From assembly GCF_014647195.1 (NCBI RefSeq), contig NZ_BMOS01000001.1, positions 14,350 through 78,349 of the forward strand: a stretch of 64,000 bases of DNA. Direction: 5' to 3'. Below the pieces are notes generated by a model. It saw only the letters and a program-made list of their open reading frames with translations. It was not told the DNA's origin and made no database searches. Made by a program: the position numbers and the translations under genes. Positions 11,048 to 62,877 of the stretch are shown here, piece after piece; position 1 is the first letter of the stretch, and every line of letters begins with the position of its first letter. This DNA comes from Oceanobacillus indicireducens. Lineage in GTDB: Bacteria; Bacillota; Bacilli; Bacillales; Amphibacillaceae.

Positions 11048-11599
11048 CTTTATTCAGCGTAAGTGTCTGGTTCATTCACTAATTATGGCGTTCTGATCGC
11101 CGTTCAGCTGCCCGGTGTACGGATGCTTTCCGCGGGCTCCGCGCTGAGCCTTGACGCACAGGACGTGCTAATGCAGACGTTGCCACATACGAGAGCGTTC
11201 TTAGTCTGCCTCGGGCTACCGCCCTGCGGGGTCTCCGGACTCGTGCTATTCCCGCAGGAGTCACCGTCCACCGGGCAACTGAACTGGCAGAGAGGGTTAT
11301 TATTAATGGAAAATATCCCACCACGATAGGTGCCCTCTTACTAAAATGAAAAGTAGTGCTCCAAATTTGGCCTTTCCTTGGAGCAGTCTAGACACCTCGA
11401 GACTCCTGCGGGAGGCCGGCTAAGAACGGTCACGTCCTGTGACCAACGCCGGCATTAGAACCTCCTGTTCGTCGATAGGCTTGGTGAGACCCCGCAGGGC
11501 GGTAGCCCGAGGAGGCTCACCAGCCGCCCGCGGAAAGCGAGAGGTGTCTGGACTGCGGACCTTCAGAAGGAGGTTGCACACACTTAAGCTGAATGAAAG
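11048..11599. repeat. Composite palindromic repeat, copy 2 (552 bp, both modules plus inserts)
   Basis: The terminal repeats CTTTATTCAGCGTAAGTG (11048-11065) and CACTTAAGCTGAATGAAAG (11581-11599) are inverted. Module A has arms GTTCAGCTGCCCGGTG at 11102 and CCACCGGGCAACTGAAC ending 11284. Module B has arms GCAGTCTAGACACCTC and GAGGTGTCTGGACTGC (11386-11558). Apical stems are GGGC-TACC-GCCC (11213-11224) and GGGC-GGTA-GCCC (11497-11508). Both modules carry an extra cassette of about 60 nt: near 11152-11211 in A and, inverted, near 11413-11475 in B. Open frames inside are artefacts of the palindrome. Confidence 0.9.
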
Positions 11600-22192: not shown

Positions 22193-22633
22193 CTTTCATT
22201 CAGCGTAACTGTGTGCAACTTACTTCTGGAGGTCCGCAGTCCAGACACCTCTCGCTTTCCGCGGGCGGCCGGCAAGCCTCCTCGCGCTATCGCGCTGCGG
22301 GGTCTCGCCAGGCCTTTCCTCCCGCAGGAGTCTCGAGGTGTCTGGACTGCTCCGAGGGAAAGCTAAATTTGGAACCCTACTTATTATTTTAGAAATAGAA
22401 CTCTCATCATGATGGGATAGTTTCCAATAATAATAACGCTCTTTACCAGTTCATTTGCCCAGCGGACGGTGACTCCTACGGGAAAAGCACGAGTCCGAAG
22501 ACCCCGCAGGAAGCGAACTTCTTCCGAGGAGGCTGAGGCCGTGCCCGTGGAAAGCATCCGTCCGCTGGGCAAATGAGCGGTGATGAGAACGCCAAAATTA
22601 GTGAATGTGCAAAACACTTACGCTGAATGAAAG
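22193..22633. repeat. Composite palindromic repeat, copy 3 (441 bp)
   Basis: The terminal repeats CTTTCATTCAGCGTAACTG and CACTTACGCTGAATGAAAG are inverted. Orientation is opposite to copy 2: module B comes first (arms GCAGTCCAGACACCTC and GAGGTGTCTGGACTGC), then module A (TTCATTTGCCCAGCGGACGG and CCGTCCGCTGGGCAAATGA). Apical stems are CGCG-CTAT-CGCG (22283-22294) and GGAAG/CTTCC (22509-22525). Note that the module A arm has changed on both sides (CAGCGGAC / GTCCGCTG here, CGGTGGAC / GTCCACCG in copy 5). Confidence 0.92.
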
Positions 22634-43139: not shown

Positions 43140-43378
43140 AATAAACTTATTATGCTAAGAAGGAACCAGTAGTCTAGTAAATCCCTATTAAAGAGAGTTG
43201 GCGGTCGGTGCAAGCCAATATATATTTACAGGCGAATTACAATCTGGAGCATTTCTTTTGGTGAGCAGCCTTAAGAACGGTGGAGACATCGTTAACAATC
43301 CCAAGTGGCACAGTTGTGCAACAAGGGTGGTACCGCGTGAATAAGCTCGTCCCTTTTTTATAAGGAGCGAGCTTTTTT
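43140..43378 (+). ncRNA. Tyrosine T-box riboswitch of tyrS
   Basis: Typical T-box leader: AGAGAG followed by a GGCGGTCGGTGCAAGCC stem region, a specifier loop with TAC (43238-43240, tyrosine), the T-box AAGGGTGGTACCGCG (43323-43337), and a terminator AAGCTCG / CGAGCTT (43343-43374) with T run. Uncharged tRNA-Tyr pairing at both places would favour antitermination and tyrS expression. A TATAAT at 43131-43136 is the likely -10. Confidence 0.93.
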
Positions 43379-43405: not shown

Positions 43406-44680
43406 ATGAATATATTAGAAGAGTTGGAATGGCGGGGACTAATCAATCAAGTCACGGACCGGGAAGGTTTGGAAGATTTATTAAATACACAATCTGTTAC
43501 ATTGTATTGCGGGTTCGACCCGACAGCAGACAGTCTTCATATCGGCCACCTTGTACCAATTGTCATGCTGAAAAGATTCCAGAAAGCTGGACATAAGCCA
43601 ATAGCACTAGTTGGTGGTGGTACGGGGATGATTGGTGACCCGAGCGGACGTTCAGCGGAGCGCTCTTTGAACACTGCAGATGTTGTGATGGGTTATGCGA
43701 ACAGTATCCAGGAGCAAATTGGTCGTCTTGTAAAATTCGGGGAAGGGGAGAACCCTGTGGTCTCCCGGAATAACCATGACTGGTTAAGCAATATGACATT
43801 TATTGATGTATTACGCGATGCAGGAAAGCATTTCAGTATTAACTACATGCTTGCGAAAGAATCTGTTTCTTCTCGGATTGAATCAGGTATTACGTACACT
43901 GAATTCAGTTACATGCTGCTTCAGTCGATTGATTACATGAAATTGTATGAAGAAGAGAATGTTCAACTGCAAATTGGTGGTAGTGATCAGTGGGGGAACA
44001 TTACAGCAGGAATGGAAATGATCCGCCGGACGAGAGAGAATCCGGAGGAAGAGGAAGTTAACGTATTCGGTTTAACCGTTCCTTTAATTACGAAAGCAGA
44101 CGGTACGAAATTCGGGAAAACTGCTGGTAACGCAATCTGGCTTGACCCGGAAAAAACGACTCCATATGAATTTTACCAGTTCTGGATCAACACAGACGAT
44201 CGCGACGTTGTGAAATTCTTACGGTACTTTACATTCCTCTCGAAAGAAGAAATTGAAGAGCTAGAGAAAGAAGTAGAAACACAGCCAGAGAAGCGAGTTG
44301 CCCAAAGAAGACTTGCTGAAGAAATGACAAAAATGGTCCACAGTGAGGAAGCACTCGAGCAGGCAATCCGCATTTCAGAAGCATTATTCAGCGGGAATAT
44401 TAAGGAATTATCGATCTCGGAAATCGAGCAAGGATTTAAAGATGTGCCGACACATGCTTTAGATAAAGAAGATATCGGTTTAGTCGACTTGCTCGTTCAA
44501 ACGAAGATTTCCCCATCGAAACGCCAGGCAAGAGAAGATATTTCAAATGGTGCGATCTACATTAATGGCGAAAGACAGCAGGACGTCGCATACACAATAA
44601 CTGCAAACGACCGTATCGAGGATGTATTTACCATCATCCGCCGCGGGAAAAAGAAATATACCCTAATTGATTTTAGTTAA
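43406..44680 (+). CDS. tyrS: Tyrosyl-tRNA synthetase
   Basis: A 424-residue class I synthetase. The HIGH motif is in CGFDPTADSLHIGHL, tyrosine-binding residues in SDQWGNITAGMEM, and the KMSKS-equivalent is KFGKT. An S4-like RNA-binding domain closes the protein (about 355-420, SPSKRQAREDISNGAIYINGER). AAAGGAG precedes the ATG. Expression is controlled by the T-box leader upstream. Length and layout match TyrS of B. subtilis. Confidence 0.96.
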   Translation: MNILEELEWRGLINQVTDREGLEDLLNTQSVTLYCGFDPTADSLHIGHLVPIVMLKRFQKAGHKPIALVGGGTGMIGDPSGRSAERSLNTADVVMGYANSIQEQIGRLVKFGEGENPVVSRNNHDWLSNMTFIDVLRDAGKHFSINYMLAKESVSSRIESGITYTEFSYMLLQSIDYMKLYEEENVQLQIGGSDQWGNITAGMEMIRRTRENPEEEEVNVFGLTVPLITKADGTKFGKTAGNAIWLDPEKTTPYEFYQFWINTDDRDVVKFLRYFTFLSKEEIEELEKEVETQPEKRVAQRRLAEEMTKMVHSEEALEQAIRISEALFSGNIKELSISEIEQGFKDVPTHALDKEDIGLVDLLVQTKISPSKRQAREDISNGAIYINGERQQDVAYTITANDRIEDVFTIIRRGKKKYTLIDFS

Positions 44681-44762: not shown

Positions 44763-45280
44763 GAAAACCTCTGTCTGTGATCTAGATAGTGATTATCCAC
44801 AGAAGAGGGAAATGATAAACATTCTATATTCACTCATGGCAATAGTTCATGTGAAAGTGCACGGACAAGCATACTCTCTTGCTCATAGCCGCCAACAATC
44901 TATTAAAAAAGAAATGAGAGGGTCTCTCGCCGCATTCCATGACCTGAGTCTTTCATAGATTGTTCATTTTTTCGGTAGCTGCGTTCGCTAAAATTACATG
45001 ATATAATATCTTTAAGTAAAAATGAGCAGAAGGCACAATGATGGATCAAGCGCTGATTTTTTGAACCCTCATTGGCGGTGGAGAAAATCTATCAAATTTG
45101 TTTGATTACGTTATCGTGCGTAAACAAACGAGGGAAGCATGGGTTATATCTGCACATCAAACTGGTCTATTTGAAATTACGGGTTCTTAGAAGGAAAGAG
45201 TTAACTAGAGATTTGGAAGGACTATCCTTTAAATGTGTTGGTTTAGAAATAGAACTAAATCAGAAAGGTGTGCTTAATCC

Positions 45281-45415
45281 ATGTTAACCACAGCTTGTAT
45301 TGGTGTGAGTGCGAAAAATCATCAAGTATTAACTGTTTTAGAAGTGGTAGAAGCCGAAACCAAATCGGCAAAAGAATGGGAAATAGAAAAGTTAATGCAA
45401 GGAGGGATAAAATGA
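45281..45415 (+). CDS. Small open frame overlapping the Gfo/Idh start
   Basis: A 44-residue frame, MLTTACIGVSAKNHQVLTVL then EVVEAETKSAKEWEIEKLMQ, whose TGA overlaps the ATG of the next gene. The helix with LEVVEAETKSAKE resembles the last helix of Gfo/Idh-type dehydrogenases, so it may be the tail of a lost neighbour rather than a real peptide. No strong ribosome site is visible (only AGAAAGGTG 12 nt upstream). Confidence 0.3.
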   Translation: MLTTACIGVSAKNHQVLTVLEVVEAETKSAKEWEIEKLMQGGIK

Positions 45416-46404
45416 GAATAGGAACCATTGGAACAGGCCCGATTGTAGATACCTTCTTATCAGCATTAGATAATGTGGAGGGTGCGGATTGCATAGCGAT
45501 GTATACACGCCCGAATTCGACTTCGAAGGCAGAATCGTTAGCCGCTAAATATAACGTAAAAAAAATATATACAGATTTAGAAGAAATGTATAGCAATCCA
45601 GATATCGATTTTGTTTATATAGCCTCCCCTAATAGCTTACATTTTGAACAAGCTTTCAAGGCATTACAACAAGGTAAAAATGTAATTTGTGAAAAACCGT
45701 TTACTTCAACGGTACGTGAGGCGGAAAAGCTTATAGAATTAGCTAAAGAGAATAATTTAATGTTATTTGAAGCTATTTCCAACATTCATTTACCGAACTT
45801 TAGGATAGTTGAGGAAAATCTCAAGCTGCTGGGAGACATCAAGGTCATTCAATGTAATTATAGTCAGTTATCCAGTCGATATTTAAAACTATTAGAAGGG
45901 GAAATTCCGAATATCTTTAACCCGGAATTCTCTGGAGGAGCTTTATCCGATCTTAATATTTATAATTTACATTTTGTTATCAAGTTATTTGGTCAACCTG
46001 AAAAAGTCCAATATATGGCTAATAAACATTCAAATGGAATTGATACATCTGGTATCGTCACAATGGAATATTCGGGTTTTGTAGCCCAATGTGTTGGTAG
46101 TAAGGATACCAATAGTATGAATTTTATCCTGATTCAAGGAGAGAATGGATTTATACATGTTGTTGGTGATCCGAATTCTTGTACAGAAGTTTTACTTCAT
46201 TTAGGTGATAAGGAAGTAAAATTGAACAACCAGGCTCTATCAAACAGGTTGTACTATGAGCTCGAAACCTTTAATCAAATATACAAAGAAGCAAACTATG
46301 TTAAGTGCTATGGTTTATTGGATCATTCACTTTCAGTCATGGAAACATATGAGAGGGCTAGAGAAGATGGAGGAATTGTGTTTGCAGTAGATAAACAAGC
46401 ATAA
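45412..46404 (+). CDS. Gfo/Idh/MocA-family oxidoreductase (A)
   Basis: A 330-residue NAD(P)-dependent oxidoreductase. Rossmann start RIGTIGTGPIVDTFLSAL, the catalytic lysine motif CEKPF, and a C-terminal sheet domain with FSGGALSDLNIYNLHFVIKLFG, where the histidine of the usual DxGxH-type motif is displaced. This subgroup is common in lactobacilli and enterococci beside sugar uptake genes. The substrate is unknown, probably a sugar or sugar phosphate. GGAGGG precedes ATG 45412. Separated from the PTS genes by a repeat and two opposite genes. Confidence 0.83.
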   Translation: MRIGTIGTGPIVDTFLSALDNVEGADCIAMYTRPNSTSKAESLAAKYNVKKIYTDLEEMYSNPDIDFVYIASPNSLHFEQAFKALQQGKNVICEKPFTSTVREAEKLIELAKENNLMLFEAISNIHLPNFRIVEENLKLLGDIKVIQCNYSQLSSRYLKLLEGEIPNIFNPEFSGGALSDLNIYNLHFVIKLFGQPEKVQYMANKHSNGIDTSGIVTMEYSGFVAQCVGSKDTNSMNFILIQGENGFIHVVGDPNSCTEVLLHLGDKEVKLNNQALSNRLYYELETFNQIYKEANYVKCYGLLDHSLSVMETYERAREDGGIVFAVDKQA

Positions 46405-46478
46405 TTTGTATAATAAATATCAAATGATCAGTTAGTTAATCGCAAACTTAAATCCCGCGTCATAAAGCCCAAAAAATT

Positions 46479-46778
46479 GAGGCTGGGACATAACTTCTTA
46501 GTATGGTTATAAATCCGAACAAATGATAAGAAAGAGCATCAACAACCGCTCCGGGAATATACTACGCTTTCCGCAGGCGGCTGGTGAGCCCCCTCGGGCT
46601 GCTGCCCTGCGGGGTCTCACCGATGCCGGCCGACGAACAGGAGGTTCTAGTGCCGGCGTTGGTCACAGGACGTGACCGTACTTAGCCGGCCTCCTGCTGG
46701 AGTCTCCGTATATTCCCGGAGCTAGTTAGCAGTTTTGTTCGGATTTAATTCATATTAGAATAGTTATGTCCCAGCCTC
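46479..46778. repeat. Palindromic repeat, copy 4 (300 bp, other arms)
   Basis: Perfect 16-bp terminal repeats GAGGCTGGGACATAAC and GTTATGTCCCAGCCTC. Inside are arms GCTCCGGGAATATAC / GTATATTCCCGGAGC and the same core as the composite elements (CGCTTTCCGCAGGCGG, CTGCGGGGTCTCACC). The apical stem is GGGC-TGCT-GCCC (46596-46607). A cassette of about 60 nt (near 46630-46692) matches the one in copy 2. So the outer ends differ from copies 1, 2, 3 and 5 while the core is shared. Confidence 0.9.
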
Positions 46779-46806
46779 TTTAATTTACTCTTTGTACTTC
46801 TGAGGA

Positions 46807-47541
46807 TTAATAATTTTTTGTTAATAATGATGCAGCAGCTTCATCCATGATGAATGTCACATTAGGATGCTTTTGTAAAATAGAAGCTGGGACATCCTCG
46901 GTAATAGGTCCTTCGAGTGTATCCTTAACGGCCTGTGCCTTTCTCTCACCTGATGAAGCAACTAAAATATGTTTTGCTTCCATAATATCGGCAAGCCCCA
47001 TTGTCAACATTTGCGTAGGAGCTTCTTCACGAGTTAAACCTTGATATTTCATTGTACTTTGAATTGTTGATTCATCACTGTCAGCTAAGAAAAGTCGTGA
47101 ATTAAAATCTGTACCAGGTTCGTTGGCTGCTAAATGAGCATTTGTACCTAAACCGACAATTTGTAGATCTCTTGGATACTTCGTCAAGATCTCGTTATAA
47201 CGATCGATTTCATTTTGTATATCGCTGACACTTCCATCCATAAGGCCGATAAATTTAGGCTTAGATTTTATTAGATCATAAAACTTTTTGTGCATATACG
47301 TATATACCGTAAACTTTTTATCTCTTTCTGAAATATACTCATCCAAATTGGTGAAGATGGAATGATTGATCTTGAGGTCATCGTTATTAATTGCTTCCAC
47401 AAGCAATTCAAATGTTCCATCATAACTTGCACCTGTTGTCGTATTAATGCTCGGCTCATCATTGTTTTCCAACGTCTCTTTGATGACCTCAAATGACTTT
47501 TGTGATAACTCATCGTAATTTTTAACTTTAATAATATTCAT
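46807..47541 (-). CDS. NagB-like amino-sugar phosphate deaminase/isomerase, variant
   Basis: A 244-residue protein of the glucosamine-6-phosphate deaminase fold, which normally converts GlcN6P to fructose-6-phosphate and ammonia. LDEY (66-69) holds the catalytic Asp. The second motif, normally GxGxDGHIAFNEP, reads GLGTNAHLAANEPG: Asn134 replaces the triad Asp (Asp141 of E. coli NagB), while His136 and Glu141 stay. A changed substrate or reaction is likely. AGGAGA precedes ATG 47541. It lies downstream of the DeoR gene on the same strand. Confidence 0.8.
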   Translation of the reverse strand: MNIIKVKNYDELSQKSFEVIKETLENNDEPSINTTTGASYDGTFELLVEAINNDDLKINHSIFTNLDEYISERDKKFTVYTYMHKKFYDLIKSKPKFIGLMDGSVSDIQNEIDRYNEILTKYPRDLQIVGLGTNAHLAANEPGTDFNSRLFLADSDESTIQSTMKYQGLTREEAPTQMLTMGLADIMEAKHILVASSGERKAQAVKDTLEGPITEDVPASILQKHPNVTFIMDEAAASLLTKNY

Positions 47542-47656
47542 AAAGCATTCTCCTCTTATCTTTAATATACCGTAATATGCATACATGCAAATTTGTAAAT
47601 CGAATTTTAGATTTATATATCATTCACTTACAGTTCTAACAGCTAACTACCGCCGG

Positions 47657-48430
47657 CTAAGTCTTAGGTTGATTAACTGCTACAATTTTAGTCATTTCTT
47701 TTATATCCTGATAAGTCTTTTCGTCTATATTGTTATTTGTAACAATATAATCAAAATCATGTACTTCTCCAATTTTATAAGCATAGTCCTTTCCAAATTT
47801 ACTACTATCAGCTACAAGAATTTTACATTTCGATCGTTTCATAACAGCTCTTTTCGTAAAGGCATCGTTATCATTTAGCAGAGTAACTCCCGAGGTAACA
47901 CTAATCCCTTCGGCGCCTATTAAACAATAATCAAAATTAAAATTTTGAATGAAATCACTAACTTGAATACCTAAAAATCCTTGAGAAAGATCACGGTATT
48001 TACCTGGAACGGAATACAAATTTATTTCTTCATAATTTGAGAGTGAATTCATAACTAATAACGAGTTTGTATAGAATGTACAATTCTTTTTTTGGAATAT
48101 TTCTTTTGCTGCTGCGAGCGTAGTTGTTCCGGTTTCTATGAAAACCAAACTACCAGATGGAATAATTTTATTGCAATAGTTGCCGATAGCTTTTTTTTCA
48201 TTAATATTTGCTAATTCTTTGATAGACATTGGCTTTTCTAAAATACTATTTTCCTTATATGTTGCCCCTCCATAAATTAGATTAATTTCACCTTCCTTTT
48301 CTAATTCATTTAAATCGCGACTTATCGTCATCGTTGAAACACCAAATTGTTTGGCTAGCTCTTTAGATCTCACTTCGCCATTTACTTTTATCATTTCTAA
48401 TATTAATTTTCGTCTTTTAACCTGATTCAA
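47657..48430 (-). CDS. DeoR-family sugar operon regulator
   Basis: A 257-residue regulator: winged helix at the N terminus (RSKELAKQFGVSTMTISRDLNELE) and the DeoR sugar-phosphate-sensing domain (VFIETGTTTLAAAKEI, TNSLLVMNSL, LIGAEGISVTSG, VADSSKFGK). It should repress the PTS genes until its sugar phosphate appears. TTG 48430 follows GGGGGG at good spacing. It is divergent from the PTS operon; an inverted repeat lies between them. Confidence 0.88.
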   Translation of the reverse strand: MNQVKRRKLILEMIKVNGEVRSKELAKQFGVSTMTISRDLNELEKEGEINLIYGGATYKENSILEKPMSIKELANINEKKAIGNYCNKIIPSGSLVFIETGTTTLAAAKEIFQKKNCTFYTNSLLVMNSLSNYEEINLYSVPGKYRDLSQGFLGIQVSDFIQNFNFDYCLIGAEGISVTSGVTLLNDNDAFTKRAVMKRSKCKILVADSSKFGKDYAYKIGEVHDFDYIVTNNNIDEKTYQDIKEMTKIVAVNQPKT

Positions 48431-48520
48431 TCTCAACCCCCCTAAAATTAAAGGTAGCAATATCTAATGGTCTGGATAAAACAAACGTAACATTTATTCA
48501 CAAAAAGTACAACAAGATTT

Positions 48521-48553
48521 AACATAAGGGACTGAAAACTGTTTACTTATGTT
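48521..48553. promoter_or_regulatory. Candidate DeoR operator
   Basis: AACATAAG (48521-48528) is inverted as CTTATGTT (48546-48553), centres about 25 bp apart, overlapping the -35 of the PTS promoter. Binding there would block that promoter. Confidence 0.5.
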
Positions 48554-48570
48554 GTTTTGTTAGGTATAAT
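48542..48570 (+). promoter_or_regulatory. Sigma-A promoter of the PTS operon
   Basis: TTTACT (48542-48547), 17-bp spacer, TATAAT (48565-48570), about 100 bp before the DUF956 gene. Confidence 0.7.
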
Positions 48571-48577
48571 ATTGTTG

Positions 48578-48591
48578 TGAGAACCCTTACA
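48578..48591 (+). promoter_or_regulatory. Weak cre-like sequence at the PTS operon start
   Basis: TGAGAACCCTTACA has two mismatches to the cre consensus, one in the central CG, and overlaps the expected transcription start. CcpA control of a PTS operon would be usual, but the match is weak. Confidence 0.3.
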
Positions 48592-48669
48592 ATTAATAGA
48601 GGGGAGGAAAACGAATAGAGGGAAAAATACTATCATTATTAGATTCAATAAAGAAATGGAGTAGGTCGA

Positions 48670-49041
48670 ATGGTCCGATCAATCAATTCAAAAGTCGATT
48701 TAGTAGTCGATGCAACCTCGCATCTGGGTCTTTCGGAGTATGGTAAAATCATGATTGGAGATAAAGGCTTTGAATTTTACAATAGTAGGGACCCTAGTAA
48801 GTTTATTCAAATTCCCTGGGAGGAAGTTGATTACGTAATTGCTTCAGTCATGTTTAAAGGGAAATGGATTCCACGTTTTGCTGTTCAAACGAAGAAAAAT
48901 GGAACGTTTTCATTTTCTTCTAAAAAACCACGAGATGTTTTCATAGCAGTTCGTAAATACGTTGACCCGAATCGCATGGTTCAATCATTAAGTTTCTTCG
49001 ACGTTATTAAACGCGGATTGAAGGGTGTTTTCAAAAGGTAA
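48670..49041 (+). CDS. DUF956 mannose-PTS accessory protein (ManO-like)
   Basis: A 123-residue DUF956 protein (VDATSHLGLSEYGKIMIGDKGFEFYN). Such genes sit beside mannose-family PTS operons in Firmicutes, where ManO is thought to influence man operon expression; its action is not known. GGAGTAGG precedes the ATG. It is the first gene after the promoter at 48542. Confidence 0.82.
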   Translation: MVRSINSKVDLVVDATSHLGLSEYGKIMIGDKGFEFYNSRDPSKFIQIPWEEVDYVIASVMFKGKWIPRFAVQTKKNGTFSFSSKKPRDVFIAVRKYVDPNRMVQSLSFFDVIKRGLKGVFKR

Positions 49042-49407
49042 TCCTGTTACGTTCATGACAGCTTTCTGTTAGGGATTCCTTACAGAAATTCATCAATCAG
49101 CGAGTAAAAGGATTTTATACGTAAAATGTAATGTGACTTTCTTGCAGAAGTGGTAATCAATGCAGTTTTAATATCCTTTATCCATAAATTTTACTAAAGA
49201 AATTATTTTAATACGGTAAACCGAATACGGTACCAAGTATTAAAACCTACTTTTTGTGAAGATGAAAAGAAGAATGATCATTCTGTTCGTAATCTATTGT
49301 TACGGAATAAACTTACTAGAAGTTCCGCATTAATAATAGTGATTACAGATTCTTTTAAAGTTATTTATATTATTAATCTGTAACAAATTATAAAAGGAGG
49401 TAAAAAG
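49042..49407. other. Gap of 366 bp inside the PTS region
   Basis: No open frame, terminator or recognisable riboswitch between the DUF956 gene and EIIAB. It is AT rich. The gap is long for an operon, so EIIAB may have its own promoter, but I cannot assign one. Confidence 0.4.
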
Positions 49408-50388
49408 ATGGTAGGAATTATTCTTGCAAGTCATGGTGATTTTGCCAATGGTATCTTGCAATCTGGAGAAATGATCTTTGGGGAGCAAGAAAATGTGAAA
49501 GCTGTTGTACTTACACCAAGTGAAGGTCCTAATGATATTAGGGAAAAGATGAAAGAAGCAATCGCCTCTTTTGACAATCAAGATGAAGTATTATTCCTAG
49601 TTGATCTATGGGGAGGAACCCCTTTCAATCAAGCAAATGCCCTGTTAGAAGAACGCGAACGTAAGGACGCTTGGGCAATTGTTGCTGGTTTGAACTTGCC
49701 GATGTTAATTGAAGCATTCGCGTCACGAATGTCAATGAACACATCGCATGAAATTGCTACACATATTTTGAATACAGCGAAGGAAGGCATCAATGTATTA
49801 CCTGAAAATTTACAACCAAAAGTACCAGCAACAAAACCAGCTGCTGCTAAAGCTTCAAATGTAGGAACGCCTGGTAAATTTGAATATGTTTTGGCACGTA
49901 TCGATACACGTTTACTTCACGGGCAAGTCGCAACTTCTTGGACAAGAGCGACAAATCCAACTCGCATTATCGTTGTATCTGATGTTGTTGCGAAGGATGA
50001 ACTTCGTAAAAAAATGATCCAAGAAGCTGCTCCACCGGGAGTAAAAGCGCATGTTGTTCCCATCCATAAAATGATTGAGCTTGCACAAGATGATCAACAC
50101 TTCGGAGGACAGCGTGCGCTACTTCTTTTTGAAACTCCACAAGACTTGCTTAAAGCAGTTGAAGGTGGCGTTCCATTGGATACAATCAACGTAGGTTCAA
50201 TGGCACATTCAACAGGTAAAGTTCAACCGAATAGGACGTTGGCATTTGACCAAGATGATATTGATACTTTCGCTAAATTGAAAAAACTTGGTTTGAAGTT
50301 TGATGTCCGTAAAGTCCCTAGTGATACAAAACAGAACATGGACGAAATTCTCAAACGGGCGCAAGAGGAGTTAAACAAAAGACCCTAA
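49408..50388 (+). CDS. PTS mannose-family EIIAB component
   Basis: A 326-residue fusion. The EIIA domain (1-130) has the phosphoryl-acceptor His9 in LASHGDFANGI; a Pro/Ala linker (about 135-155) leads to EIIB (158-326), with its histidine in RIDTRLLHGQVATSW. The phosphate passes from HPr to EIIA to EIIB and to the sugar. The sugar cannot be read from the sequence; the mannose family includes mannose, glucose, amino sugars and others. AAAGGAGG precedes the ATG. Confidence 0.92.
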   Translation: MVGIILASHGDFANGILQSGEMIFGEQENVKAVVLTPSEGPNDIREKMKEAIASFDNQDEVLFLVDLWGGTPFNQANALLEERERKDAWAIVAGLNLPMLIEAFASRMSMNTSHEIATHILNTAKEGINVLPENLQPKVPATKPAAAKASNVGTPGKFEYVLARIDTRLLHGQVATSWTRATNPTRIIVVSDVVAKDELRKKMIQEAAPPGVKAHVVPIHKMIELAQDDQHFGGQRALLLFETPQDLLKAVEGGVPLDTINVGSMAHSTGKVQPNRTLAFDQDDIDTFAKLKKLGLKFDVRKVPSDTKQNMDEILKRAQEELNKRP

Positions 50389-50414
50389 TTGTAAAGGGTA
50401 AAGGAGGATTAATC

Positions 50415-51227
50415 ATGGTTTTGGATTTGAATGTAATTCAAATAATATTAATTTTGATCATAGCATTTATAGCTGGAATGGAAGGGATTTTAGACCAATT
50501 CCATTTTCATCAACCAATTATTGCTTGTACGCTCATCGGCTTAGTTACAGGACAATTAGTACCAGCCCTTATTCTCGGCGGTACCCTGCAATTGATTGCT
50601 TTAGGTTGGGCAAATATCGGCGCTGCTGTCGCACCGGATGCTGCGCTTGCATCCGTAGCTTCTGCAATTATATTAGTTTTAAGTGGACAAGGTGAAGCCG
50701 GTGTATCTTCTGCAATCGCTATCGCCGTTCCACTTGCAGTTGCAGGTTTATTATTGACAATTATTGTTCGGACAATTACGACAGGGATCGTACACATTAT
50801 GGATAGTGCTGCTGAAGAAGGTAATATCCGGAAAATTGAAATGTGGCAAATGATTGCTGTCTCACTACAAGGATTACGTATTGCTATTCCGGCTGGATTA
50901 ATATTAGCTATTGGGGCGGGTCCGGTTAGAGGATTACTTGAAGCTATGCCATCTTGGCTAACAGATGGTTTAGCAATTGGTGGTGGAATGGTCGTAGCGG
51001 TTGGTTATGCAATGGTTATTAACATGATGGCTACCAGAGAAGTATGGCCATTTTTCGCGATTGGTTTTGTTTTAGCAACAGTTTCGGAAATCACACTTAT
51101 CGGTCTTGGTGTTATCGGCTTGTCTCTTGCACTTATCTATATTGCACTTTCTAAAAAGGGTGATTCTGGCGGCGGAAACGGCGGCAACTTTGGTGATCCA
51201 CTAGGCGATATTATTGATAATTATTAA
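50415..51227 (+). CDS. PTS mannose-family EIIC component
   Basis: A 270-residue membrane protein with the family hallmarks LDQFHFHQPIIACTLIGLVTGQL and LGGTLQLIALGWANIGAAVAPDAALASVASAI. EIIC and EIID together form the sugar channel. The C terminus is glycine rich (GDSGGGNGGNFGDPLGDI), as in other ManY proteins. AAAGGAGG precedes the start. Tight spacing to EIIAB (26 bp) and EIID (18 bp) shows an operon. Confidence 0.93.
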   Translation: MVLDLNVIQIILILIIAFIAGMEGILDQFHFHQPIIACTLIGLVTGQLVPALILGGTLQLIALGWANIGAAVAPDAALASVASAIILVLSGQGEAGVSSAIAIAVPLAVAGLLLTIIVRTITTGIVHIMDSAAEEGNIRKIEMWQMIAVSLQGLRIAIPAGLILAIGAGPVRGLLEAMPSWLTDGLAIGGGMVVAVGYAMVINMMATREVWPFFAIGFVLATVSEITLIGLGVIGLSLALIYIALSKKGDSGGGNGGNFGDPLGDIIDNY

Positions 51228-51245
51228 AAAGGAGGCAGACATAAA

Positions 51246-52157
51246 ATGGAACAAGAAATAAGATTAACTAAAAGAGATCGTATTGCTATTTGGTGGCGTT
51301 CAACTTTTCTTCAAGGATCTTGGAACTATGAACGTATGCAAAATGGTGGCTGGGTATATTCGATGATTCCCGCAATCAAGAGATTATATACAACTAAGGA
51401 GGATCGTTCAGCTGCTTTACAACGACACTTAGAGTTTTTTAATACTCACCCATATGTAGCTTCACCTATTCTTGGTGTAACATTAGCACTTGAAGAAGAA
51501 CGTGCAAATGGTGCTCCTGTTGATGATGTTGCAATTCAAGGGGTTAAAGTAGGTATGATGGGGCCATTAGCGGGTGTAGGGGATCCACTTTTCTGGTTCA
51601 CTGTTAAGCCAATCCTTGGTGCATTGGCGGCTTCACTAGCTATGACCGGTAACCCCCTTGGTCCAATTATTTACTTTGTTTTCTGGAACCTCATTCGTAT
51701 GGGAACCATGTGGTATACACAAGAACTCGGTTACAAAGCCGGTTCTAAAATCACGGAAGACTTATCTGGTGGCCTGCTTCAGGATATTACGAAGGGGGCA
51801 TCCATCCTTGGTATGTTCATCCTTGGTGCATTAGTAAACCGATGGGTATCGATAACATTTACACCGATTGTTTCTTCAGTTAAACTGAGCGAGGGTGCTT
51901 ATATTGATTGGGCAAATTTACCTGCAGGTGCAGAAGGGATTAAAACTGCGCTGGAACAGATGGCTGCTGGTCTTTCGTTGAGTGAGACCGAAATAACCAC
52001 TTTACAAGATAACTTGGATATGTTAATTCCTGGTTTAGCTCCATTGCTGTTAACGCTTTTCTGTATGTGGTTGCTTAACAAGAAAGTTAACCCAATTGTA
52101 ATCATTCTAGGATTGTTCGTTGCAGGTGTAGTCTTCCACGTATTAGGTATCATGTAA
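51246..52157 (+). CDS. PTS mannose-family EIID component
   Basis: A 303-residue membrane protein of the EIID family: STFLQGSWNYERMQNGGWVYSMIPAIKRLY at the N terminus, then LEEERANG, VKVGMMGPLAGVGDPLFWFT, and C-terminal membrane helices. It completes the transporter with EIIC. AAAGGAGG precedes the start. A gap of 159 bp with a weak hairpin follows before the YhhX-like gene. Confidence 0.94.
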   Translation: MEQEIRLTKRDRIAIWWRSTFLQGSWNYERMQNGGWVYSMIPAIKRLYTTKEDRSAALQRHLEFFNTHPYVASPILGVTLALEEERANGAPVDDVAIQGVKVGMMGPLAGVGDPLFWFTVKPILGALAASLAMTGNPLGPIIYFVFWNLIRMGTMWYTQELGYKAGSKITEDLSGGLLQDITKGASILGMFILGALVNRWVSITFTPIVSSVKLSEGAYIDWANLPAGAEGIKTALEQMAAGLSLSETEITTLQDNLDMLIPGLAPLLLTLFCMWLLNKKVNPIVIILGLFVAGVVFHVLGIM

Positions 52158-52316
52158 AAAATCCTCATCATCCGTACGCTTAAGGTAGGATTAATGTGGC
52201 GTCCTATCTACAAGGGTGGGTGGCTTTTTAACATGACGGTTCAGGTTTTTGATCGTGTGGGTTGTGAAGATTATACTAGTATTAACTAAGGATATTAATT
52301 AGATAAGGAGTTTATT

Positions 52317-53330
52317 ATGTTAACAATAGGGTTTATTGGAAATGGGAAAAGTACAAATAGATATCATCTGCCGTTTGTACAACAAAGAGAGAATATAAAA
52401 GTAAAAACAATCTATCAAAGAAATCCTAACCGTGAAAGCTGGGATCGGATTCCTGGAGTAAATTATATTTCTGATTTAGGTGAACTATTAAATGATAAGG
52501 AAATTCAACTCATTGTGATTTGTACAGGAATGGACAGTCATTATGAATACGCAAAATTAGTATTAGAACATAATAAACACTGTTTGGTTGAAAAACCTTT
52601 TATGGAAACCTCTGAACAGGCTAAAGAAATATTTGCAATGGCCAGAGAAAAAGAATTAATTGTTCAGCCGTATCAAAATAGACGTTTTGATAGCGACTTT
52701 TTAACCGTTCAAAAGGTTATTGAAGAAGGAAAACTAGGTGACTTACTAGAAGTGGAAATGCATTTTGACTATTATCGTCCTGAAATACCGGAGTCTGCCC
52801 ATTCATTTGATCGTGTTGAGTCATTTTTATATGCGCATGGTACGCATACAATAGATCAGGTTATTAGTTATTTCGGTAAACCGGATGATATACACTATGA
52901 TGTAAGGCAATTATTAGGACAAGGAAGAATGAATGATTACTTTGATTTGGATTTATATTATGGTAATTTAAAGGTATCTGTTAAATCGAGTTATTTTAGA
53001 ATCAAAGAGAGACCCAGCTTTGTCGTTTATGGCAAAAAAGGGAGCTTTGTGAAAAAAACTAAAGATCGCCAGGAAGAACACTTAAAGTTATTTTATATGC
53101 CTAATAATAAAGATTTTGGTGTGGATACAATAGAACATTACGGTGTACTAACATATATGGATGAAGAAGGTATCCATGAAGAAAAAGTGACATCTGTAAA
53201 TGGCGATTATGGAAGAGTTTATGATGATTTATATGAAGCCATCATAAATGGAAAAGAAAAAACGATTACAGACGAACAGACATTGTTGCAAATGGAAATA
53301 CTAGAAACTGGAATTAAAAATTTGGGGTAA
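52317..53330 (+). CDS. Gfo/Idh/MocA-family oxidoreductase (B), YhhX-like
   Basis: A 337-residue oxidoreductase that closely follows the pattern of E. coli YhhX: GFIGNGKSTNRYHLPFV at the nucleotide site, LVEKPFMETSEQAKEIF with the catalytic lysine, YQNRRFDSDFLT, HFDYYRPE, HGTHTIDQVISYFG and VVYGKKGSFVK. YhhX has no assigned substrate. Placement as last gene of the PTS operon suggests it acts on the imported sugar phosphate or its product. TAAGGAG precedes the ATG. A strong terminator follows. Confidence 0.87.
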   Translation: MLTIGFIGNGKSTNRYHLPFVQQRENIKVKTIYQRNPNRESWDRIPGVNYISDLGELLNDKEIQLIVICTGMDSHYEYAKLVLEHNKHCLVEKPFMETSEQAKEIFAMAREKELIVQPYQNRRFDSDFLTVQKVIEEGKLGDLLEVEMHFDYYRPEIPESAHSFDRVESFLYAHGTHTIDQVISYFGKPDDIHYDVRQLLGQGRMNDYFDLDLYYGNLKVSVKSSYFRIKERPSFVVYGKKGSFVKKTKDRQEEHLKLFYMPNNKDFGVDTIEHYGVLTYMDEEGIHEEKVTSVNGDYGRVYDDLYEAIINGKEKTITDEQTLLQMEILETGIKNLG

Positions 53331-60360: not shown

Positions 60361-60559
60361 GTTCAAAAGTCGGTAAAAATGACACATCAAACTTCTGCGT
60401 TGGTTCGCTTTTCCGCTCCTATGTACCCATCGATGTACATTCCGGTGCGGAGAGCTTCGCCGCATTTGAAGTCTTGCGCACAGGAAGTGCTCATGTCGGC
60501 GTTGTGATACGAATCGCGAATTTAGCCGACCTCGGTCCTTTTTATCCTCCTTTTTGAAC
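60361..60559. repeat. GTTCAAAA-ended repeat with cassette-like core
   Basis: The ends GTTCAAAA (60361-60368) and TTTTGAAC (60552-60559) are inverted. The inner half carries GCACAGGAAGTGCTCATG and TTAGCCGACCTC, which match the cassette inserted in repeat copies 2 and 4. It fills most of the gap between refZ and ezrA. The predicted frame on the minus strand is not a gene. Confidence 0.7.
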
Positions 60560-62436: not shown

Positions 62437-62877
62437 CTTTCATTCAGCGTAAGTGTGTGCAACTTACTTCTGGGGGTCCGCAGTCCAGACACCTCTCGCT
62501 TTCCGCAGGCGGCTGGTGAGCCTCCTCGTACGCTTTGCGTACTGCGGGGTCTCACCTATGCCTATCCTCCTGCAGGAGTCTCGAGGTGTCTGGACTGCTC
62601 CGAGGGGAAAAGCCAAATTTGGAACACTATTTATTAATTTAGGAATAGAACTCTCATCATGATGGGAAAATTTCCAATAATAATAACGCTCTCTACCAGT
62701 TCAGTTGCCCGGTGGACGGTGACTCCTGCGGGAATAGCACGAGTCTGGAGACCCCGCAGGGCGGTAGCCCGAGGAGGCTCCAGCTGTGCCCGCGGAAAGC
62801 ATCCGTCCACCGGGCAACTGAACGGCGATTAGAGATCTAGCCAAGAGAACATGCTAAACGTTTACGCTGAATGAAAG
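62437..62877. repeat. Composite palindromic repeat, copy 5 (441 bp)
   Basis: Same length and orientation as copy 3. Ends CTTTCATTCAGCGTAAGTG (62437-62455) and CGTTTACGCTGAATGAAAG (62859-62877). Module B has arms GCAGTCCAGACACCTC / GAGGTGTCTGGACTGC and apical stem GTACGC-TTT-GCGTAC (62528-62542). Module A has perfect arms GTTCAGTTGCCCGGTGGACG and CGTCCACCGGGCAACTGAAC with apical stem GGGC-GGTA-GCCC (62759-62770). About 200 bp without a visible gene follow before nifZ. Confidence 0.93.

Follow-up and report, generated by a model that had tools for sequence, protein, structure and literature searches.

A conserved mannose-family PTS–YhhX operon beside a divergent DeoR–NagB variant pair in Oceanobacillus indicireducens: two modules at one locus

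Glucosamine-6-phosphate (GlcN6P) deaminases of the NagB family are represented by the solved structures 2bkx, 2ri1 and 1cd5, which we take to be the enzymes of Bacillus subtilis, Streptococcus mutans and Escherichia coli, respectively. Mannose-family phosphotransferase systems (PTSs) of Firmicutes are encoded in operons of the manLMN-manO type, and in the D-glucosaminate (dga) and glucoselysine (gfr) systems such a PTS feeds an amino-sugar derivative to dedicated enzymes. Excerpts of two reports describe N-acetylglucosamine raising nagA, nagB and manLMN together in Streptococcus pneumoniae (PMC5110562) and IolG and IolW acting in sequence as two dehydrogenases in B. subtilis (PMC9768902). Here we describe a locus of Oceanobacillus indicireducens (genome of 3.87 Mb, 99.97% complete) that lies at 45412–53330 of a 64,000-nucleotide stretch of contig NZ_BMOS01000001.1, hereafter the window. 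It comprises eight genes: a mannose-family PTS operon with a YhhX-like oxidoreductase, a DeoR-family regulator, a NagB-like gene (NagBx) and a further Gfo/Idh/MocA oxidoreductase. A prediction made earlier from the sequence (the original prediction) had joined these genes into one sugar pathway. All eight are present and open and were correctly described, so that the observation itself was right; the multi-step pathway is unsupported as a conserved whole, and the locus is instead composed of two modules, A and B.

Module A, on the forward strand, consists of DUF956, EIIAB, EIIC, EIID and the YhhX-like gene, which we call Gfo2. Its DUF956, EIIAB, EIIC and EIID are those of the manLMN-manO operons; unlike these, it ends in a YhhX-like dehydrogenase, as it does in 27 family genomes, and in the window it faces a divergent DeoR-NagBx pair. 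Like the nagA-nagB-nagE route, the locus pairs a PTS with a NagB-family enzyme, but there is no NagA among the eight genes, and a nag-type cluster, identified by eye, lies elsewhere in the genome; the original prediction was correct in setting the locus apart from the usual nagA-nagB route. The locus also differs from dga and gfr, as the eight genes include no ammonia-lyase, aldolase or SIS-type deglycase, and from the IolG/IolW pair, as Gfo2 is far closer to YhhX and to 3hnp than to YvaA (presumably IolW) and none of the eight is an inositol gene.

The PTS genes, EIIAB (49408–50388), EIIC (50415–51227) and EIID (51246–52157), follow DUF956 (48670–49041; PF06115, 180 bits). The EIIA, EIIB, EIIC and EIID Pfam families of the Man/Fru/Sor type all score over cutoff, as do the NCBIfam models TIGR00824, PRK15065 and TIGR00828, with the EIIB model TIGR00854 slightly under (154.7 vs 163.6). 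The SHG motif of EIIA and the LLHGQ motif of EIIB, which we take to be the phosphorylatable histidine sites, are intact, as is the EKPF motif of the Gfo/Idh family. Gfo2 (52317–53330, 337 amino acids) scores 349 bits against the YhhX model PRK10206, whose cutoff is 352, and its solved relatives are 3hnp (333 bits) and YhhX itself (3f4l, 317 bits), with YvaA distant at 168 bits. The titles and abstract openings found in a literature search give no function for YhhX or for a PTS-YhhX unit; an excerpt of one paper assigns Lmo0356 to the YhhX family (PMC3721983).

The association between the PTS and Gfo2 is conserved. We surveyed 146 genomes of the family: 30 carry an EIID ortholog (E up to 1e-100), 31 a Gfo2 ortholog (79–89% identity) and 28 both (Fisher p = 2e-24). 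Gfo2 adjoins EIID in 27 of these 28 genomes, that of the window included, with a gap of 4.8 kb in G096. The complete order DUF956-EIIAB-EIIC-EIID-Gfo2 is found in 26 of the 31 Gfo2 genomes, again including the window's; G058 has EIIC, EIID and Gfo2 only, and three genomes (G040, G071 and G017) have Gfo2 without EIID. Two have EIID without a Gfo2 of at least 79% identity (G037 and G052), the former carrying a 67% relative on a different contig. This adjacency across family genomes indicates that the operon linkage seen in the original prediction is genuine, and the PTS-YhhX half of the locus is a conserved unit. Module A is normally found without DeoR and NagB, with one family genome (G014) the exception for DeoR.

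Module B comprises the DeoR regulator and NagBx, which lie on the reverse strand and diverge from module A across 239 bp. NagBx (46807–47541, 244 amino acids) is a divergent GlcN6P-deaminase-like enzyme with a variant TGASYDG motif. It scores over cutoff for Pfam Glucosamine_iso and reaches 168.8 bits against the NagB equivalog TIGR00502, below the cutoff of 236.9. Of 64 loci from a scan of named genomes, 14 belong to the NagBx branch at 62% identity or more; L082, from G013 (67%), is the 15th besides the window. G150, a genome of the same genus as the window's, has three NagB-branch genes that agree in identity (82, 74 and 49%) with those of Oceanobacillus neutriphilus, two of them also in their protein starts, which fits an Oceanobacillus-type host. 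We aligned 72 of the 73 collected proteins, leaving out one of 180 amino acids or less, and built a tree of 50, comprising 15 NagBx (the window's included, the truncated L116 omitted), 6 of a second group, NagB2, and 29 ordinary NagB proteins, midpoint-rooted for drawing. The NagBx rows group together with support of 99/97 and NagB2 is their sister (98/95), while the split of both from ordinary NagB has support of 100/100 and a branch length of 1.05. NagBx is thus a variant, as the original prediction had it, and lies on a separate, well-supported NagB branch.

The alignment shows which features this branch has kept and lost. Residues D67, N134, H136, E141 and K201 are kept in 16/16 NagBx rows; of these D67, H136, E141 and K201 presumably correspond to the catalytic Asp72, His143, Glu148 and Lys208 of E. 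coli NagB. NagBx therefore has the family and the catalytic positions of 2bkx, 2ri1 and 1cd5 in common with NagB, from which it departs elsewhere. Position 40 is proline in 50/50 ordinary NagB proteins and tyrosine in all 15 NagBx rows with a letter there, converting TGxTP to TGASY. Asparagine 163 (49/50 ordinary) is threonine, and phenylalanine 139 (49/50 ordinary) is alanine, in 16/16 NagBx and 6/6 NagB2 proteins. Arginine 165, present in 47/50 ordinary proteins and by alignment taken to be the phosphate ligand Arg172 of E. coli NagB, is replaced in most of the branch, by glycine in 9/16 and by lysine in two, one of them the window's; a single NagBx row has arginine.

These substitutions bear on whether the locus serves ordinary glucosamine use, with the mannose PTS delivering GlcN6P and NagBx acting as one more GlcN6P deaminase. 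Mannose PTSs do transport amino sugars, the catalytic Asp, His, Glu and Lys positions and the Glucosamine_iso and TIGR00502 matches would fit such a role, and so would the arginine 165 retained in one row and the lysine at this position in the window. Set against this are the score under the curated NagB cutoff and the loss of P40, and mostly of R165, across the branch. In addition, four ordinary nagB genes are present in the genome, one in the nag-type cluster (EIIBC-nanE-EIIA-nagA-nagB; by eye, L101) and another in a murQ/murP-type cluster (by eye), so NagBx seems not to be needed for GlcN6P. Judged from sequence, we consider ordinary glucosamine use unlikely. Because the branch has lost presumed phosphate-site residues, plain GlcN6P is a doubtful substrate for NagBx. 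With both the canonical phosphate-site arginine and the TGxTP proline lost, its substrate is probably another or a modified amino-sugar phosphate.

The DeoR regulator (47657–48430, from a TTG start that we chose) lies upstream of NagBx. Its best NCBIfam model is AgaR, at 168 bits under a cutoff of 260, and generic DeoR domains score over cutoff. Only one of 27 other genomes of the genus, G014, has an ortholog (80% identity), in the same divergent arrangement, and there a creatinase-N-type gene follows DeoR in place of NagBx (L088, 14082–16349). This argues against the DeoR-NagB-PTS set as one conserved pathway. The region at 48521–48570 on the forward strand contains a sigma-A-like promoter of the PTS operon, TTTACT-17-TATAAT, that is conserved in G014, and an 8-bp inverted repeat (48521–48528 and 48546–48553) that overlaps the −35 box and is a candidate operator. 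A scan for this repeat gave no match at the G014 locus, which retains one of the arms, or next to DUF956 in eight relatives without DeoR. From this layout and sequence, DeoR-NagBx and the PTS operon are likely to be under joint control. No cre site was found in the gap between DeoR and DUF956, against 7 matches to the catabolite-repressor consensus (3.6 expected) in the window as a whole. An Rfam search of the 366-bp gap between DUF956 and EIIAB returned no RNA leader at gathering scores.

We looked at NagBx neighbourhoods elsewhere within 7.5 kb of the gene, comparing the 15 other NagBx loci with 50 ordinary nagB loci (L167, with no NagB match, being left out). Neighbour queries were drawn from L107, L112, L111, L105, L118 and L088, so those loci match themselves; L107 and L108 are near-copies, and L106 and L116, with little flanking DNA, were counted as misses. 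Neighbours were largely named by eye except where families were tested on representatives, which identified a ROK repressor, a glucokinase-type ROK kinase, a GPH symporter, M81/MlrC, an aldose epimerase and an ArgE/DapE-type M20 protein. An M81 or M20 metallohydrolase is present in 13/15 NagBx loci vs 0/50 ordinary nagB loci (p = 6e-12), or in 10/12 after L107, L108 and L112 are dropped, and a ROK kinase of at least 50% identity in 11/15 vs 0/50 (p = 2e-9). The usual company of NagBx is thus an uptake system, M81 or M20, and either a kinase or a PTS. In L105, which carries the closest NagBx relative (82%), an M81 gene (39% identical to that of L107) is accompanied by a beta-glucoside PTS that replaces the kinase. 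The simplest common reading of these sets, we infer, is uptake, amide hydrolysis, phosphorylation and deamination, and this half of the locus hints at an undescribed amino-sugar route elsewhere. All six NagB2 loci (L084–L086 and L118–L120, of which L085/L086 and L118–L120 are near-copies) have a hydantoinase/carbamoylase-type M20 and an EIIBC nearest MalX.

The recurring set itself consists of NagBx and M81 or M20, mostly with a ROK repressor, a ROK kinase and a GPH symporter or ABC transporter; it occupies 8604–14700 of L107, with related sets in L082, L108–L115, L117 and L163. Its hosts are Bacillus, Paenibacillus, Oceanobacillus, Gracilibacillus, Pseudogracilibacillus and Staphylococcus nepalensis. 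In the last of these (L117, 4457–8399) the NagBx genes adjoin a set that by eye is glucosaminate-like, with a sugar kinase, an aldolase, a SelA-like lyase and an amidohydrolase. Among the titles and abstract openings listed, a search of one literature library returned none describing the PTS-Gfo2, NagBx or other gene sets found here, and no paper joining MlrC with glucosamine-6-phosphate deaminase or NagB with Arg172 or Lys208.

A mannose PTS was found within 7.5 kb in none of the 15 other NagBx loci, two of which (L106 and L116) have short flanks, and on this ground we reject a single pathway conserved as a unit. The original prediction expected YhhX-type, EIIAB-C-D and NagB-like genes to keep company across genomes; the first two do, and in the loci compared the NagB-like gene and the mannose PTS do not. 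A rival reading is a loose or chance neighbourhood, the PTS-YhhX unit being a general hexose importer and DeoR-NagBx an independent pair that came to lie next to it and shares only the intergenic region with it. The PTS-Gfo2 unit indeed occurs without DeoR or NagB in other family genomes, save for DeoR in G014. NagBx and EIID do not co-occur significantly (EIID in 2/4 NagBx genomes of the family sample, p = 0.19), G013 has both genes 0.66 Mb apart, and a dispersed repeat adjoins NagBx. The divergent regulator-operon layout over 239 bp, retained in G014 at 80% DeoR identity, points the other way, as does the inverted repeat, which in the window overlaps the −35 box and had no counterpart next to DUF956 in the scan of eight relatives lacking DeoR. 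We regard a chance neighbourhood as a rather improbable account.

The remaining gene, Gfo1 (45412–46404, forward strand, 330 amino acids), has as nearest solved chains 2ho5 and 4iq0, which carry the family name only. It is separated from NagBx by a dispersed repeat of ∼300 bp with inverted ends (46479–46778) that includes a Bacillaceae-1 RNA match on the reverse strand (46634–46700). We examined its possible partnership with YhhX-type genes, relatives of which occur in 36/348 genomes of the class (E up to 1e-70), at 25 loci that lack a mannose PTS, namely 20 regions picked by identity from 47 class matches, four loci from the family, and L221, included because a Gfo1-YhhX pair had already been seen there. 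A Gfo1-type gene adjoins or lies near the YhhX-type gene in 15/25 (14/24 without L221). With neighbours named by eye from the queries, an RpiR-like regulator is nearby in 17/25 and a beta-glucoside-type PTS in 3/25; one locus, L215, has a fructose-type PTS, also by eye. A second dehydrogenase as partner of YhhX is therefore a real theme, and the RpiR-like and PTS neighbours suggest that YhhX-type enzymes act on sugar phosphates. The RpiR-like regulator and YhhX-type oxidoreductase occur together in L201–L205, L207, L208, L210–L213, L217–L219, L221, L080 and L099, in Bacilli outside the lineage of the window, and most of these loci also carry a Gfo1-type oxidoreductase.

The Gfo1 of the window has a different company. 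Relatives of 59–61% identity occur in 9 other genomes of the genus; in L080, L217, L218 and L221 they pair with a YhhX branch 42–44% identical rather than with the Gfo2 type, and in L188, L191, L194 and L195 neither YhhX type lies within 1.5 kb. Because of the intervening repeat and this other partner type, or none, we do not count Gfo1 in the operon, and it probably lies outside the transcript of the others. The two Gfo/Idh genes noted in the original prediction are thus types that do neighbour each other elsewhere, while the window's own Gfo1 sits behind a repeat and belongs with another YhhX branch. The full route originally proposed, in which the sugar phosphate from PTS uptake is epimerised or oxidised by the two Gfo/Idh enzymes before it reaches NagBx, could draw on the 15/25 loci, and on Gfo/Idh genes in 3/15 other NagBx loci (L111, L114 and L115). 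These, however, are best matched by the L111 query rather than by Gfo1 or Gfo2; in the window NagBx and a repeat stand between Gfo1 and the operon, and the relatives of Gfo1 keep other partners or none. We consider this route very improbable.

The most likely of the readings, at somewhat less than even confidence, is that an existing mannose-family PTS has been recruited to take up an amino sugar, the phosphate of which a non-canonical NagB opens and deaminates. The PTS (DUF956, EIIAB, EIIC, EIID) would import a hexose-type sugar as its phosphate, and Gfo2 might act on this or on a derived sugar phosphate. One sugar phosphate would derepress both DeoR-NagBx and the PTS operon through DeoR, and NagBx would carry out ring opening, isomerisation and deamination of an amino-sugar phosphate to give a ketose phosphate and ammonia; deamination followed by glycolysis, as originally suggested, is plausible. 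In keeping with this reading are the PTS-Gfo2 linkage, the separate NagBx branch with its usual neighbours, and the joint response of nagA, nagB and manLMN to N-acetylglucosamine in S. pneumoniae (PMC5110562). The union of modules A and B is likewise plausible, and among the genomes examined is seen in this one alone.

Several observations weigh against recruitment. Besides the lack of any mannose PTS near NagBx at the 15 other loci, the usual M81/M20 hydrolase and ROK kinase are absent among the eight genes of the locus. ROK proteins are present elsewhere in the genome, and M81 was not found there with a protein query that did find it in G013 and G150. G014 keeps the DeoR arrangement without NagBx. 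The window NagBx has lysine rather than glycine at position 165, and phosphate binding may therefore persist. Finally, a weak terminator-like hairpin (52204–52223) lies between EIID and Gfo2; such sites number 10 in the window vs 5.0 expected.

Further features lie around the locus. A decayed stretch 5′ of Gfo1 (∼45000–45400) gave four hits to proteins of Gfo1 loci, all of them weak or short (E 0.006 to 0.07); the two best, both to the same gene, cover 27 amino acids at 41% to a YhhX-like protein. Partial copies of the dispersed repeat occur in the window at 11399–11539, 62497–62562, 62748–62800, 133–197 and 22253–22306, among others, and two further Bacillaceae-1 RNA matches lie at 11404–11471 and 60477–60544. 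A T-box leader (43148–43357) precedes tyrS (43406–44680). The translation of a contig end in L104 (10450–10752) repeats a short motif and is possibly a CRISPR array.

Beyond this genome, the data allow a wider reading with two parts, which we offer jointly and at low confidence. First, the NagBx branch may be an undescribed deaminase/isomerase of amino sugars or their conjugates on which a new catabolic pathway in Bacilli centres. The substrate would enter through a GPH symporter, an ABC transporter or a PTS, M81 or M20 would cut an N-acyl or amide bond in the stead of NagA, a ROK kinase or PTS would phosphorylate, and NagBx would open the ring and deaminate a substrate other than GlcN6P. In O. 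indicireducens this pathway would have been rerouted through a mannose PTS already equipped with a sugar-phosphate dehydrogenase, with a free amino sugar entering without kinase or hydrolase. Second, and as tentatively, RpiR, YhhX and Gfo1 may form a module, as yet undescribed, in which two dehydrogenases act on sugar phosphates.

For YhhX, whose structures are solved, the ties to PTSs and RpiR-like regulators give a concrete class of substrates. If the wider reading is true, the NagBx branch would define a further type of gene set for hexosamine-phosphate deamination, in which M81 ‘microcystinase-like’ or M20 proteins stand in for the expected NagA. Some M81 proteins would then gain a sugar role, and automatic annotation of the NagBx genes as nagB would call for caution.

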